From Xenorhabdus griffiniae (GTDB lineage Bacteria; Pseudomonadota; Gammaproteobacteria; Enterobacterales; Enterobacteriaceae): a stretch of DNA of 53,379 bases. Numbering within the stretch: the first letter of the stretch is position 1; every line of letters starts with the position of its first letter. Shown here piece by piece: positions 26,217-41,094 of this stretch. The translations under genes and the position numbers were made by a program. Where the stretch lies: positions 1-53,379 of the forward strand of contig NZ_LDNM01000057.1 in assembly GCF_001028135.1 (NCBI RefSeq). The letters run 5' to 3'. The notes under the pieces are model-generated. The model had not been told where the DNA came from, did not search any database, and saw only the letters and a program-made list of their open reading frames with translations.

Positions 26217-26735
26217 TTAAGCAACAACCGGTGCGCGCCAGTCGTCAGCACCAGAAGTACCCGCAGTAGTGTGTTCCCAAGTAATCTTACGATAAGAAAG
26301 AGATACACGAACTAATTGCGTGAATTCTGATTTAGCCGGATCCTGGCAGTGTGGCATTTTGCAATCGATATCAACGATAGTTGCATCTTCCAGTTTTGTC
26401 GTAAAGAAATGCTCTTGTTTACCTTCGATTGAAGTACGATACCATTTCAATTCTACAGTAGGCAGCATTTCGCCAGAAGCCAGTGCGTTGTACAGCAGAG
26501 GAACTGATTTATTCAATGCAACGGTAAAGCGGAATGGCTTATGCGCACGCTGGCCAGAAGGTTGTCCTGACTGTGGATCAGTGGGGACAGTGACGATGTG
26601 GTCAAATTCTTGAACCAGCATTTCGTCTTCGTGACCCTGAACAAAGATATTACCTACGGATTCAGCAGTGAATGAACCAGCGGTAATATGACCCTGAGTT
26701 TTACCATGGATGGAAATATAACATGGAGTTGGCAT
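26217..26735 (-). CDS. hcp: T6SS inner-tube protein Hcp
   Basis: Hcp/TssD (172 aa) forms hexameric rings that stack into the inner tube of the T6SS and are expelled with effectors. The sequence begins MPTPCYISIHGKTQGHITAG and has the family blocks VQEFDHIVTVP, HKPFRFTVALNKSVPLLYNAL and SLSYRKITWEH. Length is typical for enterobacterial Hcp. The start ATG follows AGGATATTC. It is transcribed away from the rest of the T6SS genes, with a private strong hairpin behind it, so tube protein can be made in excess. No toxin extension is fused to its C-terminus. Confidence 0.96.
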   Translation of the reverse strand: MPTPCYISIHGKTQGHITAGSFTAESVGNIFVQGHEDEMLVQEFDHIVTVPTDPQSGQPSGQRAHKPFRFTVALNKSVPLLYNALASGEMLPTVELKWYRTSIEGKQEHFFTTKLEDATIVDIDCKMPHCQDPAKSEFTQLVRVSLSYRKITWEHTTAGTSGADDWRAPVVA

Positions 26736-27652
26736 ATGAATATCCTATAAAAAGTTACCAATATTAGTGTAAGTGTTCATTTCTTGCGTGATTATTCCAT
26801 CTGTTAATAAAATGAAATTATCGCTTACCAAACACTCGGGGCGAATAATAAAGCTGAAATTGCCTGATGCAAAGTCATTTGAAAAATGCAACATGCACGA
26901 TAATTCAATGACAAATAATAATTTTATAATTATTGCCGTTATAAAATTTATAGCTGATTTTTTATAAACAATAAGCTCATTCAACTGGTTTAAAAATGAT
27001 CTATGACTTTTTTGTTTTTTTAACCTTTTGATATTTAATGTTTTTTATTTTTTTGTTTAAATGTTTTTTATGATCATTTGAAAAGTGTTAACTAGATCAA
27101 AAAAATGGAAATAACCTGAATTGTTATGGCGCATAATTAATCAGGATAAAATACAAAATGATATTGATGATGATTATTGATAACGGTCTGTAAGGTTATA
27201 TTTTATTCAGGTGAAGATGAAAAATATTTCTTTTAACGCAAATAATAGGTAGTGGGGTTACGTACTCTTACAGAGAGTAAAACCAAACTTTCCTCTATTT
27301 TGAGCGCAAAAAAATGTTTATAACTTGCTATGGATTTTGATAGGAAGATTAAAGGCTTGAATAGAGGTCTTTATCAATTTGTGTTTAGGCTTTACATCAA
27401 AAAAATAAAATGTCAAACTCGAACTTGACGATTTTCGTATCGATGTTATTTCCACGATTGGATAGGGTATATCTGATTATTTAACTATATGTTGATATAA
27501 AACTATTCGTGCCTGCAAATATAGTTGTCTTCTTTAGCCTATTTTTTAGGAAGATTTTCTGTATTTATTATATGGGTGAACATTGGAATCATTCTCTCAC
27601 CAATAATGGGTTGTTAGACAGTTCATGGTTGTATTAGCCAAAGGATTCAAAT
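26736..27652. promoter_or_regulatory. AT-rich divergent control region between hcp and tssB
   Basis: About 900 bases, very AT-rich, between divergent hcp and tssB. It must contain both promoters. Two overlapping frames (26745-26984 minus, starting at TTG; 26773-26967 plus) have no good ribosome-binding site or similarity and are left out. I looked for a sigma-54 -24/-12 pair (GG-N10-GC within TGGCAC-N5-TTGC context) on both strands and found none convincing. The composition would suit silencing by H-NS (inference). Confidence 0.5.
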
Positions 27653-28150
27653 ATGAGTAAGAATAGTCCAGGTAGCGTAGCGCCGAAAGAAAGAATTAAT
27701 ATTAAGTATGTTCCTAATAATGGTGACCAGACCGCAGAAGTTGAATTACCTCTAAATCTTCTGGTTGTTGGTGACTTGAAAGGAAAAAGCGAAGATACGC
27801 CAATTGAAGAGCGGCAGACAGTTTCTATCAATAAGAACAACTTTAATGCCGTAATGAATGAAGCGAACATCAACCTAACTTTTAACGTTCCTAATCGTCT
27901 CGATGAAAAAAGCGAAGAAGATCTGCCGGTTAATCTGGAAATAAAATCGCTGAATGATTTTTCGCCAGATAATGTCGCGAAGAAAGTGCCTGAATTAAAT
28001 AAACTTCTCGAACTTCGTGAGGCATTAGTTGCATTAAAAGGTCCATTGGGAAATATCCCAGCATTTCGTGCTCGTTTGCAGTCACTACTGGATGATGAAT
28101 CCGTTCGTGAGCAACTCCTGAAAGAACTTGAAATCGTCAATAAAAAATAA
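27653..28150 (+). CDS. tssB: T6SS contractile sheath small subunit TssB
   Basis: TssB/VipA (165 aa) pairs with TssC to build the contractile sheath around the Hcp tube. The start SKNSPGSVAPKERINIKYV and the block ELPLNLLVVGDLKG are typical, as is the C-terminal helix region with LLDDESVREQLLKELE. Length matches the family (about 165-170). The ATG at 27653 follows AAAGGATTC. tssC begins 20 bases later. It is the first gene of the main plus-strand cluster. Confidence 0.96.
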   Translation: MSKNSPGSVAPKERINIKYVPNNGDQTAEVELPLNLLVVGDLKGKSEDTPIEERQTVSINKNNFNAVMNEANINLTFNVPNRLDEKSEEDLPVNLEIKSLNDFSPDNVAKKVPELNKLLELREALVALKGPLGNIPAFRARLQSLLDDESVREQLLKELEIVNKK

Positions 28151-36914: not shown

Positions 36915-39632
36915 ATGATCCAGATTGATCTGCCTACCCTTGTAAATCGTATAAACCCGATGACCCGCCATGCACTGGAAGTGGCGGCGGCATCCTGCGT
37001 CAGTCAGCAACAACCTGAAATCACGGTTGCGCAGCTGCTGCTCCAAATGATCGATACGCCACTTAGTGATGTACGACTCATCTTCAATAAAGCAGACATC
37101 GATAAAGATCTGCTCAAAGAACAGCTCGATCAGGTAATAACGCACCATCAAACGCTGGTGCAGGCCTACCCCAATTTTTCCCCAATGCTGGTGGAATGGT
37201 TACAGGATAGCTGGTTGTTGGCTTCCACAGAGATGCAGCACACCGAACTGCGCAGCGGCGTTATGCTGATTGCATTGCTATTCAGCCCGCTGCGTTACCT
37301 GGCACCACAAACTGCACGTCTGCTGGCAGGTATCAACCGCGAATTATTGCGCCAAAACTTTGCAGAATGGACGAATGGTTCGGCTGAACAGCCTTTTGCG
37401 GACAACAGTAATAAAGATGGGCAGGGCGCACATCCGGCAAACAGCGACAATTTGCTGGCACGCTTTACCCAGAACATGACCGAACAGGCACGTCAGGGCA
37501 AGCTGGATCCGGTTTTATGCCGCGATAACGAGATCGATCTGATGATCGACATCCTGTGTCGTCGGCGCAAAAACAACCCCATCGTCGTGGGTGAAGCGGG
37601 GGTCGGTAAAAGTGCCCTGATTGAAGGTTTGGCATTGCGCATTATTAACGATCGCGTACCGGAAAAATTGCGTAACAGTGAACTGATGACACTGGATCTG
37701 GGGGCATTGCAGGCTGGGGCCGCAGTTAAGGGTGAATTTGAAAAACGCTTCAAAGGCATCATGGCTGAAATTAGCCAATCGGCAAAACCCATCATCCTGT
37801 TTATTGATGAAGCCCATACCCTGATCGGTGCGGGCAATCAAGCGGGAGGTTTGGATATCTCCAACCTGTTGAAACCGGCTTTGGCACGTGGTGAGCTGAA
37901 AACTATCGCCGCCACCACATGGAGCGAATACAAGAAATATTTTGAAAAAGATGCCGCGCTGTCCCGTCGTTTCCAACTGGTGAAAGTGTCTGAGCCAACA
38001 GCGGATGAAGCAACCGTCATCATGCGTGGCCTGCGAGCCATTTACGAGCAGGCGCACGGCGTGCTGATTGATGATGAAGCCCTGAAAGCCTCAGCGGTAT
38101 TGAGTGACCGTTACCTTTCCGGCCGCCAACTGCCGGACAAAGCCATTGACGTATTGGATACTGCCTGTGCCCGTGTTGCCATCAACCTGACTTCACCCCC
38201 GCGTCAGATCTCTTCGTTAACGACTGATCTGCACCAGATGCAAATGGAAATCGACGTGCTGGAGAGGGAACAACGCATGGGATTGAACATCCATGCTGAA
38301 CGATTGGACGCGTTGCAAAACCAGCAAAAAGACGTTCAGCAGCAACTCACCGCGTTGGAAATGAGCTGGCAACAGCAGCAAGAGTTGGTGAAACACATCA
38401 TCGAACTGCGCCACCAATTACTGGCGGATGATTCTTTCGTTGAAAATACGGTTGAAGAGATTGTCGGGGATGAGGATAAACATGAAGCGACTAAGCCGGG
38501 TGAGACCGCAGAAGAAGCCGGGATAGCCGGGATAACAGAAAAAGTCGCTGACGAACAATCCTTGATCGAAAAACTGGCGACGCTTAATGTCCAGTTGGCA
38601 GAACTACAGCAGAAGCAAATACTGGTTTCCCCGCATGTGGATAAAACCCAGATTGCGGCGGTGATTGCCGAATGGACGGGCGTACCATTGAACCGCTTGT
38701 CACAAAGCGAACTTTCCATTGTCACTGAATTGCCTGTTCACTTGGGGCAAAGCATCAAGGGGCAGGAAATGGCGATCCAGTGTTTGCACAAACACTTACT
38801 GACTGCCCGGGCCGATTTACGTCGTCCGGGGCGTCCTCTTGGGGCATTCCTGTTGGTCGGGCCAAGTGGCGTCGGTAAGACAGAAACCGTCCTGCAAATT
38901 GCGGAACTGATGTTTGGTGGCCGTCAATACCTTACCACCATCAACATGTCCGAGTTTCAGGAGAAACACACGGTTTCCCGTTTGATCGGTTCACCCCCGG
39001 GTTACGTCGGATATGGTGAAGGTGGTGTACTGACCGAAGCCATTCGCCAGAAACCGTATTCAGTTGTCTTGTTGGATGAAGTGGAAAAAGCTCACCCTGA
39101 CGTACTGAACCTGTTCTATCAGGCTTTCGACAAAGGGGAGCTGGCGGATGGAGAAGGCCGCATTATCGACTGTAAAAACGTCGTGTTCTTCCTGACGTCA
39201 AACCTGGGCTATCAAACCATCGTAGACAGTGCCGAACAGCCAGCGCAGATCAACGACCTGCTTTACCCTGAATTAGCGGCATTCTTCAAACCCGCCCTGT
39301 TGGCGCGGATGGAAGTGATCCCTTACCTGCCATTGGGCCATGAAACGCTGAAAATCATTATTCAGGGCAAACTGGCCCGACTGGATACCCTGTTGACCCA
39401 ACGTTTCAACGCAGAAGTCACCATCAGCGACGAGGTATCCGAAGAGATCCTGCAACGTGCTACCCGCGCGGAAAATGGTGCCCGTATGTTGGAGTCCATC
39501 ATTGATGGCGCACTGCTACCGCCAATTTCATTACTGCTGTTGCAGAAAATGGCGGCGGGGACTCCCATCAGGGCCATTCGCTTAACCGTGGTTGAACACG
39601 AATTCCACGCAGAGGTTGAGGAGGCAGAATAA
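36915..39632 (+). CDS. clpV: T6SS sheath-recycling ATPase TssH (ClpV)
   Basis: ClpV (905 aa) is the Hsp100 AAA+ unfoldase that takes apart the contracted TssBC sheath. It has an N-terminal Clp_N domain (1-150), a first AAA+ module with Walker A GEAGVGKS and Walker [13 protein letters not shown], and a coiled-coil middle domain (about 415-560) that here includes an acidic insert ([14 protein letters not shown]...). A second AAA+ module has [10 protein letters not shown] and [15 protein letters not shown]. Both ATPase sites look intact. Length is slightly above the family average (about 870), mostly due to the insert. The stop shares its last base with the next start (TAATG). Confidence 0.97.
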
Positions 39633-40429
39633 TGAAACAGCGGCTGAAAAGCGCGTTAGCGTTATTGGAAAATGACACTGTAGAACAACTGGCTGACCAT
39701 TTTTTGCAGATCAGCCATAGCTCGCGTTTTGATGCCCTGTTGGTTTTCCTGCTGAACATCAACGAAAACAGGTTGGAATGCTATAACTTGCCGGCGACTC
39801 AGCAAACCAGTTCGCGCCGATTGCAAGTGGACATTGATGACGTCAATAACCCGTTGATACAGGTATTACGCAAGGGAACCCCAACTGTTTGGGATTCCCT
39901 TAATCACGGGGCACGCATTGATGAGCCATACTTCCGCACGTTTATCGCGGAACTACCGCATAATTGTGGGTTGTACGGCATTCCCCTGTTTGACTGCAAT
40001 GGGCAGGGTTGTGGGGTGATCGCTATCTTTGCCGAAGATGTCCGCCATTTCATCAACAATGAAAACATGTTCGGCATCTATTGCCATGTCATGCAGCATC
40101 GCCTGAAAAAATTGCAGGAACTCGAACAACTGCGCGGACAGTTACGCCAAATCCGCCAGGTATTTCAGGTTCAACGCCAAAAAGAAAAACAATTGGATGA
40201 ATTGCTGGCTTCCCTGAGTGAATCGAAAAAACCGGCGGCGGTCAGCCGTATCTCCGTGGATTACAGTCATATCGATAATCTGCCAAAGGCCATAGAAGAA
40301 TTTGAAAGCGCCGTGTTGATTCAACGTCAGCGTCAGTTTGGCAATGACACCAGATTGATCGCACAAAGCCTGGGTATTGCCCAGCGGACGTTGGTTTACA
40401 AACTGGCTAAGTACGGGTGTAGATTATGA
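39632..40429 (+). CDS. VasH-position regulator lacking the AAA+ domain (GAF-like plus Fis HTH)
   Basis: The gene in the vasH position encodes 265 residues. Residues about 15-155 are a GAF-like sensor (SRFDALLVFLLNINENRLECY, and IPLFDCNGQGCGVIAIFAED). Residues 160-205 are a charged coiled coil (QLRGQLRQIRQVFQVQRQKE). Residues 220-265 are a Fis-type helix-turn-helix (NDTRLIAQSLGIAQRTLVYKLAKYG). The sigma-54 activator domain normally between them is missing: there is no Walker A, no GAFTGA and no space for about 240 residues. It may bind DNA as a conventional regulator or antagonise sigma-54 activators, but cannot itself remodel sigma-54 polymerase. The frame is intact and overlaps both neighbours (1 base with clpV, 4 with the next gene), so it looks retained and not decayed. 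Confidence 0.8.
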   Translation: MKQRLKSALALLENDTVEQLADHFLQISHSSRFDALLVFLLNINENRLECYNLPATQQTSSRRLQVDIDDVNNPLIQVLRKGTPTVWDSLNHGARIDEPYFRTFIAELPHNCGLYGIPLFDCNGQGCGVIAIFAEDVRHFINNENMFGIYCHVMQHRLKKLQELEQLRGQLRQIRQVFQVQRQKEKQLDELLASLSESKKPAAVSRISVDYSHIDNLPKAIEEFESAVLIQRQRQFGNDTRLIAQSLGIAQRTLVYKLAKYGCRL

Positions 40430-41094
40430 ATATTGTTTTAATTATCAGTTCATTGCTCGCTTCATTGACAGGGAACCCCAAGTTTGCAGAGGTGGCAGAA
40501 CTCAAGGACGTGGTTGCGGTGAAGGAAGAGCAAAATTTAGATGAGTTGCATAAATGCCGCTTTGAGCCGTCTCCTCTTATCCGGCTGGCATGTTATGACC
40601 GCGCGTTGAATAACCTCAAGTTCAAAACGGTGAAAATCCCTATCGAAAATATGGGGCATCTGTGGCGGCAAGCGATGGAACAGGAGATGAAACGTACCGA
40701 TTACTCTACCAGCTTCATTGTGACGCAGGGAGAGAATGGTGCGGCACCGATTATCTTGACCACGCCCGCGATTGGCGTAGCCCCCCCACGTCCCGTATTA
40801 ATGTTGAGTTGCATTGACAGTATCACCCGCTTGCAGGTGGCACTGCCCAAGCCCGTAGAGTCAGGGGTTGTCACTGTGGCAACAGACAGAACCGAGTACC
40901 GTACTGAATGGTTCGTGCGGGAACAGGGTTACTTGTGGGAATCCAGCCGGGGTTTACCGGGCATTGAAGAAATCAAGCGCCTGATGAACAGCGACCGGAT
41001 GAGTATTACAGGCAGTAATGGTAGCCAGATAACCTTTAACATTTCTCAGTTGGAGCAGGCAGCGAAGCCATTACGTGCTGCTTGCCGTTGGTAA
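40426..41094 (+). CDS. tagO: T6SS-associated protein VasI/TagO
   Basis: This 222-residue protein matches the VCA0118 (VasI/TagO) family: a short N-terminal signal-like helix (MNIVLIISSLLASLTG), then the small Cys-pair block CRFEPSPLIRLACYDRALN near residues 43-61, found in this family, and a C-terminal beta-rich domain with TRLQVALPKP and EWFVREQGYLWESSRGLPGIE. It is predicted periplasmic; its role in secretion is accessory and poorly known. It overlaps the regulator by four bases (ATGA). Confidence 0.85.
   Translation: MNIVLIISSLLASLTGNPKFAEVAELKDVVAVKEEQNLDELHKCRFEPSPLIRLACYDRALNNLKFKTVKIPIENMGHLWRQAMEQEMKRTDYSTSFIVTQGENGAAPIILTTPAIGVAPPRPVLMLSCIDSITRLQVALPKPVESGVVTVATDRTEYRTEWFVREQGYLWESSRGLPGIEEIKRLMNSDRMSITGSNGSQITFNISQLEQAAKPLRAACRW

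Follow-up and report, generated by a model that had tools for sequence, protein, structure and literature searches.

The Gene between tssH and vasI

The window, a stretch of 53,379 nucleotides of Xenorhabdus griffiniae DNA (contig NZ_LDNM01000057.1), carries a T6SS cluster in which an intact open reading frame of 265 codons, from the ATG at 39632 to the TGA at 40429, lies between tssH and vasI, the place that VasH occupies in T6SS clusters of the V. cholerae type. It overlaps tssH by 1 nt (TAATG) and vasI by 4 nt (ATGA); the bounds and overlaps agree with an earlier note on this DNA, which had described an intact gene in the vasH position overlapping both neighbors. We refer to the product as short VasH. 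The relevant features are:

26217..26735, minus strand: hcp, divergent from tssB, without an upstream −24/−12 promoter (best score −0.97; maximum possible 19.96)
26736..27652, no strand: hcp-tssB intergenic region, 917 bp, without an enhancer palindrome or a good −24/−12 site
27653..28150, plus strand: tssB, which opens the main cluster
36915..39632, plus strand: tssH (ClpV/VasG)
39632..40429, plus strand: short VasH (sensor, helix and Fis-type HTH, no AAA+ domain), 265 aa, assigned from its open frame and translation, its slot and synteny, and homology to full-length VasH on both sides of a gap
39632..40096, plus strand: N-terminal sensor region, aa 1–155, homologous to the VasH GAF region (hhalign 99.7%, 156 columns)
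40097..40219, plus strand: long helix or coiled-coil region, aa 156–196 (selection, heptad score, predicted helix)
40220..40258, plus strand: variable linker, aa 197–209, at the place of the AAA+ domain in full-length VasH (alignment gap of about 250 columns; dN/dS as given below)
40259..40426, plus strand: Fis-type HTH, aa 210–265 (HTH_8, hhalign, predicted helices 217–236, 240–247 and 251–261)
40426..41094, plus strand: vasI, the orthologue of which is annotated VasI in Rahnella

The nearest named records are those of Xenorhabdus sp. BG5 (97%) and X. griffiniae VH1 (95%). Since length and synteny are the same across 13 genera and recur in named records, there is virtually no chance that the short frame is a gene-call or assembly error.

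Homology to Full-Length VasH

In alignments, residues 1 to approximately 196 and 210–265 of short VasH flank a missing block of full-length VasH, and profile comparison with hhalign of 20 short with 28 full-length proteins gave 99.7% for the N-terminal part and 99.5% for the C-terminal part, versus less than 1% for the AAA+ part. A Pfam and NCBIfam profile search found no match of Sigma54_activat in the window protein; the same model matches two of the eight members of alignment A1, both full-length. The region of the GAFTGA loop is absent from the window protein, and a Walker A pattern was found in none of 20 short forms, a weak test, as the pattern was missed or misplaced in 8 of 18 full-length ones. 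The motifs GAFSGA, LFLDE and RxDLxxR are present in all 18 full-length genes checked, that is, in 17 of the 22 family places described below and in G045, a genome of another family with a 516-aa gene carrying AAA+ and GAFSGA in the same slot. Judged by these alignments, short VasH is a VasH after clean in-frame loss of the whole AAA+/sigma-54 domain, and the earlier proposal of a regulator that had lost its ATPase and GAFTGA motif and kept its frame stands. Two other short forms match no NCBIfam family at E 1e-5, and one full-length relative matches 28, mostly bEBP families among the matches listed. In G057, a 533-aa gene of the full-length kind precedes vasI, with no tssH found adjoining.

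The retained parts were also as the earlier note had read them, with one reservation. A weak HTH_8 match (E 0.002, 18.3 bits, below the Pfam cutoff of 22) is the only Pfam or NCBIfam match of the window protein; HTH_8 matches all eight A1 members at E up to 1, and a PDB search with the A1 profile brings up NtrC-family HTHs (E 0.0003) and Fis (1fip, E 0.023), which together with the C-terminal hhalign score bears out a Fis-type HTH. Heptad spacing and a predicted helix at 146–196 support the coiled coil. The reservation concerns the “GAF-like” sensor: its homology to the N terminus of full-length VasH, called GAF in PMC9972734, is the basis for the label, whereas no Pfam GAF model matches the window protein and the fold is not confirmed, because the AlphaFold model is poor (mean pLDDT 59, pTM 0.34). 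In that model, 10-residue blocks have pLDDT values of 37–66 in the sensor, 68–75 in the helix and 61–80 in the HTH, so that the long helix and a three-helix HTH are predicted at fair confidence.

The HTH recognition region differs between the two forms, reading KRTLDHKCQKL in 12 of 18 full-length proteins versus RTLxYKLxKY in 14 of 20 short ones, with YKLxKY in all 20. Separately, the full-length VasH of G218 (L201) has a short deletion in this region (LNIPKCQKLEVN), and the hcp of that genome keeps a sigma-54 site with a score of 16.3.

Distribution and Gene Order

Within the genus the gene is present in 29 of 30 genomes, the window's own included, in open frames of 268–294 aa, with no match in G022. 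Because a search of the family with the A1 profile, scoring three candidates per genome, missed most of the divergent short forms, vasI was used as the query, yielding 82 places in 76 genomes from an even sample of 392. The state of each place was read from the stretch between tssH and vasI, eight short and five full-length places being judged by open-frame length alone: 26 places are short (13 genera), 22 full-length (9 genera), two full-length with a ruined AAA+ domain, 31 empty and one unclassed (G404, without tssH). In the degenerate pair (G346 and G279; L203 and L204) the GAFTGA region is deleted and Walker B and RxDLxxR are lost, with Walker A kept. Gene sizes in 72 loci are either 260–268 aa (20 short loci, 13 genera) or 502–519 aa (20 full-length loci), with none between, and a sensor-loop insert gives 279–284 aa in some Xenorhabdus and in a MAG. 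A recent, strain-specific deletion, which would have counted against the reading in the earlier note, is ruled out by the presence of the short form throughout most of the genus and in 13 genera, which marks it as old.

One of the carriers, g162, is a Photorhabdus (93.5% DNA identity to P. thracensis). Named carriers beyond Xenorhabdus and Photorhabdus are Rahnella and Proteus mirabilis, possibly counted among the 13 genera. Each has the gene in the tssH-vasI slot and an hcp that diverges from tssB and lacks a sigma-54 site (3.45 and −1.07, respectively). The Rahnella gene is named “helix-turn-helix domain-containing protein” in RefSeq. Four genomes hold two clusters of this T6SS type in differing states: short and empty in G133, G250 and G387, and full-length and empty in G204.

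Two further loci were noted. In L102 (G367), whose genus has the full-length gene, an open frame of 281 aa aligns with the profile over its first 211 positions only; vasI, tssA and tssM were not found in that stretch, which looks like a recent cluster loss. G017 has, at C2:3921302-3952191, four short matches (27–38 residues, 53–59%) to short VasH residues of about 121–158, three of them with an internal stop and all within 50 kb of that genome's own copy.

Gene order around hcp varies with the state of the slot. An hcp of more than 70% identity is divergent from and adjoins tssB in 12 of 12 empty clusters (those with enough flanking sequence; one more had 63 bp and 18 had no tssB in the stretch), in 13 of 19 short-form clusters (one further cluster had no tssB in the stretch) and in 1 of 20 full-length clusters, G045 and the degenerate pair included. 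The hcp-tssB intergenic region in the genus is mostly 915–933 bp long, two of the 21 measured being 1009 and 1065 bp. In V. cholerae, VasH drives the auxiliary hcp clusters and is not key for the main cluster, according to PMC8855297; by analogy, with hcp beside the main operon, coupling through VasH may no longer be needed.

Evolutionary History and Selection

A tree of concatenated TssG, TssK, TssL and TssH (60 rows, 1922 columns), built by a quick method and rooted on five clusters of other families, unites the short and empty rows in one clade (SH-aLRT 100) that excludes the canonical full-length rows and has the degenerate pair as its sister (99). The four states need 4 changes on the rooted tree versus a shuffled mean of 28.8. 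An AU test rejects one single clade of empty rows (p 0.029), and the gene was therefore lost at least twice; the lineages without it keep the same cluster, so there it is dispensable. The AU test does not reject a tree that groups the degenerate pair with the full-length rows (p 0.19), nor one in which the short rows form a clade that excludes the empty ones (p 0.43). One loss of the AAA+ domain appears to be the simplest reading of this tree, and an order from degenerate to short to empty is suggested by it. The opposite polarity, with the short form ancestral and the AAA+ domain gained later, is rejected on the ground of full-length genes in seven other families (f10, f11, f12, f13, f21, f23 and f25).

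Selection was measured against Xenorhabdus and Photorhabdus loci with dS below 1.5 (20 of 30; 18 for vasI). Median dN/dS is 0.127 for short VasH, 0.116 for vasI, 0.105 for tssA, 0.072 for tssL and 0.055 for tssH; within short VasH it is 0.137 for the sensor, 0.64 for the linker and 0.054 for the HTH. For the helix at aa 156–196, median dN is 0 against 30 related loci and dN/dS is 0.0 (22 loci). Short VasH is under purifying selection, in which the deletion scar drifts and the retained parts do not, and the overall value bears out the constraint that was expected to have outlasted the AAA+ domain. These values weigh on the reading of the gene as a remnant with hardly any function that is decaying toward the empty state. 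The many empty clusters (31 of 82 places) and the repeated loss speak for such decay, but a dN/dS like those of vasI and tssA contradicts relaxed selection on the whole gene, and the narrow size range across 20 short loci likewise argues against it; we consider decay improbable.

The hcp Promoter and Its Candidate Enhancer

The 400 bp before each hcp were scored with an approximate matrix built from the sigma-54 consensus with weights that we set, which can miss weak sites, because a check at pspF gave only 10–11. The hcp loci were taken from the matches listed, 30 for the set of 21 full-length genomes and 30 for the set of 21 short-form genomes rather than every hcp copy, and loci of 70% identity or less were dropped (3 and 4), leaving 27 full-length loci (17 genomes) and 26 short ones (21 genomes), three of the latter (L281, L285 and L286) lying on contigs of empty clusters. 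Among these matches, a near-consensus −24/−12 site, scoring at least 12, is found upstream of hcp in 24 of 27 full-length versus 1 of 26 short-form loci, and at a score of 14 in 23 versus 0. The Fisher p of 9e-11 overstates this contrast, because it is largely one evolutionary event and relatedness makes the counts far from independent. In 19 of the 24 full-length loci the site stands 65–68 nt before hcp. The three misses, sorted after the fact, fall in the two genomes with degenerate VasH (9.26 and 0.0) and at the hcp on the contig of the empty cluster of G204 (2.59), the full-length cluster of that genome having an hcp with a site (14.6). No site occurs at hcp in 12 empty clusters (best 4.87). 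Against the contrast counts G031, a short-form genome with a site scoring 12.2 at 115 nt before hcp. No site of at least 12 was found at tssB in 20 full-length clusters (best 10.4, 14 nt before the start). The matrix scores of the window agree with the earlier reading that neither hcp nor tssB has a convincing −24/−12 promoter there.

A dyad search on collapsed sets (23 full-length, 24 short) returned a palindrome in the full-length genomes and, in the short ones, nothing clear beyond A/T words. This candidate enhancer, YTGCGCA-N3-TGCGCAA, scanned as TTGCGCA-N3-TGCGCAA with up to two mismatches, is present among the matches listed in 17 of 27 full-length versus 0 of 26 short-form loci (shuffled 0 and 0.05), the first count being partly circular because the motif was derived from those sequences. 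A scan of 16 whole genomes for the exact core, whatever the spacer, found it in 10, among them three of nine short-form genomes and both degenerate ones; the core with a TTC spacer gives eight sites, confined to four of the five full-length genomes. Seven of these sites lie about 140–230 bp ahead of an hcp match, and the eighth lies 1.9 kb ahead of tssB. The changed recognition region of the short forms would fit the loss of this palindrome. In these comparisons, the VasH ATPase, the hcp promoter and the palindrome are absent together while the sensor-helix-HTH protein is kept.

No shared operator emerged upstream of hcp or tssB in the short-form clusters, where the search yielded A/T words plus a single word close to the start codon, and conserved palindromes there score no better than column shuffles. 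Across 22 Xenorhabdus and Photorhabdus rows, conservation in the hcp-tssB region peaks in a 20-bp stretch within window positions 27353–27450, where a GTCAA-N8-TTGAC palindrome also does not beat shuffles. The lack of an operator would be expected if the HTH were irrelevant for DNA and the protein served as a T6SS accessory or scaffold, its helix and sensor binding Hcp, TssH or another part, and both the stronger constraint on the helix than on the HTH and the overlaps with tssH and vasI point the same way. We nevertheless regard a scaffold as unlikely, since the HTH is itself strongly constrained and its recognition region keeps YKLxKY in all 20 short forms compared.

The host keeps rpoN as an open frame of 487 aa, so that sigma-54 itself has not been lost. 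The host genome has five clear bEBP-type AAA+ genes, and three weak matches (E 5e-7 to 5e-5) in two long open frames. Two of the five were inspected by their neighbors, one lying beside methylcitrate-type genes, which we take to be prpR, and one beside its kinase, which we take to be ntrC; TyrR and PspF are presumably also represented, and a second full-length VasH was rejected on the strength of the five clear genes, two of them inspected. With rpoN and these genes at hand, and a helix that could allow mixed oligomers, short VasH might act as a dominant-negative partner of another bEBP or as half of an activator whose AAA+ part is supplied in trans; however, the two genes inspected read to us as PrpR and NtrC, and the window's hcp has no −24/−12 site to act on, which makes such a partnership quite improbable. 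In the same genome, an orphan Hcp-like gene (L063, 52-531) adjoins a gene that reads as glnG (NtrC).

Discussion

Taken as a whole, the observations are in our judgment best explained, with somewhat better than even probability, by a VasH that lost its motor and was kept for a new regulatory role. Short VasH was probably put to new use, since its sensor and DNA-binding parts are kept in at least 13 genera while the promoter is gone; it most likely regulates by binding DNA without sigma-54 and may still respond to Hcp. Of the roles put forward in the earlier note (sigma-70 regulator, anti-activator or DNA-anchoring factor), any may apply. Its ancestor was, as comparison among clusters shows, a normal bEBP with sigma-54-type promoters at hcp in its genomes, and would have fired them as is known from Vibrio. 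In one branch of Enterobacteriaceae T6SS clusters, hcp lies beside tssB, and the −24/−12 promoter, the enhancer-like palindrome and the AAA+ domain have gone, with no order of events implied. The sensor-helix-HTH remnant is kept in 13 genera, under strong selection in the Xenorhabdus and Photorhabdus loci measured, and was dropped in other lineages. It would dimerize through its invariant helix, bind DNA at sites unlike the old palindrome, and modulate sigma-70 T6SS promoters on a T6SS signal, by analogy plausibly Hcp.

In V. cholerae, VasH is described by two reviews (PMC9972734 and PMC10482370) as sensing Hcp by binding it through the GAF domain, with Hcp build-up lowering hcp transcription. 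Hcp sensing joined to plain DNA binding would be the simplest retained function. A more specific version, which we hold only tentatively, is that a sigma-54 activator, its motor excised, now stands alone as a repressor or activator that senses Hcp and acts at sigma-70 T6SS promoters, the sensor and its feedback loop surviving and the output changing from ATP-driven firing of sigma-54 to operator binding in step with the move of hcp beside tssB. If this were true, the full-length, broken-AAA+, AAA+-less and absent states of today would be snapshots along a single route.

In the literature, VasH (VCA0117) of V. cholerae and Sfa2 of P. aeruginosa are described as bEBPs of T6SS clusters. Short VasH shares with them the VasH-type slot between tssH and vasI, and full-length genes in that slot have homologues of its sensor and HTH, VCA0117 and Sfa2 themselves being compared by description; unlike them, it has no AAA+ domain or GAFTGA, and its hcp has neither the −24/−12 promoter nor the palindrome. 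RegA, ActR and PrrA, which act at sigma-70 promoters, likewise combine a sensor with a Fis-type HTH and have no AAA+ domain, but differ in having a receiver domain and a kinase partner in place of the VasH sensor, and in having no known tie to T6SS. Fis, a general nucleoid factor, has an HTH related by profile to that of short VasH and has no sensor. TyrR, DhaR, HupR and VpsR keep their AAA+ domain. These four are bEBP homologues with a defective GAFTGA, as a bEBP survey reports (PMC3162934), which also names forms without the sensor, without the HTH, or without both. Like them, short VasH is bEBP-derived and no longer able to fire sigma-54; in contrast, they are full-length homologues faulted at GAFTGA, and the degenerate pair is of that kind. 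The titles and abstract openings of open-licence papers on VasH, AAA+-defective bEBPs and the T6SS of Xenorhabdus and Photorhabdus contain no description of an AAA+-less VasH.

In these clusters one can follow, as a natural series, how a sigma-54 activator was dismantled together with its promoter and candidate enhancer site while the rest of the regulator was kept. The short form isolates the VasH sensor from the ATPase, such that Hcp sensing could be tested alone. Models based on Vibrio would assume VasH/sigma-54 control of hcp in the short-form genera; the prediction here is that hcp in Xenorhabdus, Photorhabdus, Rahnella, Proteus and at least nine other genera would not be controlled through VasH and sigma-54.
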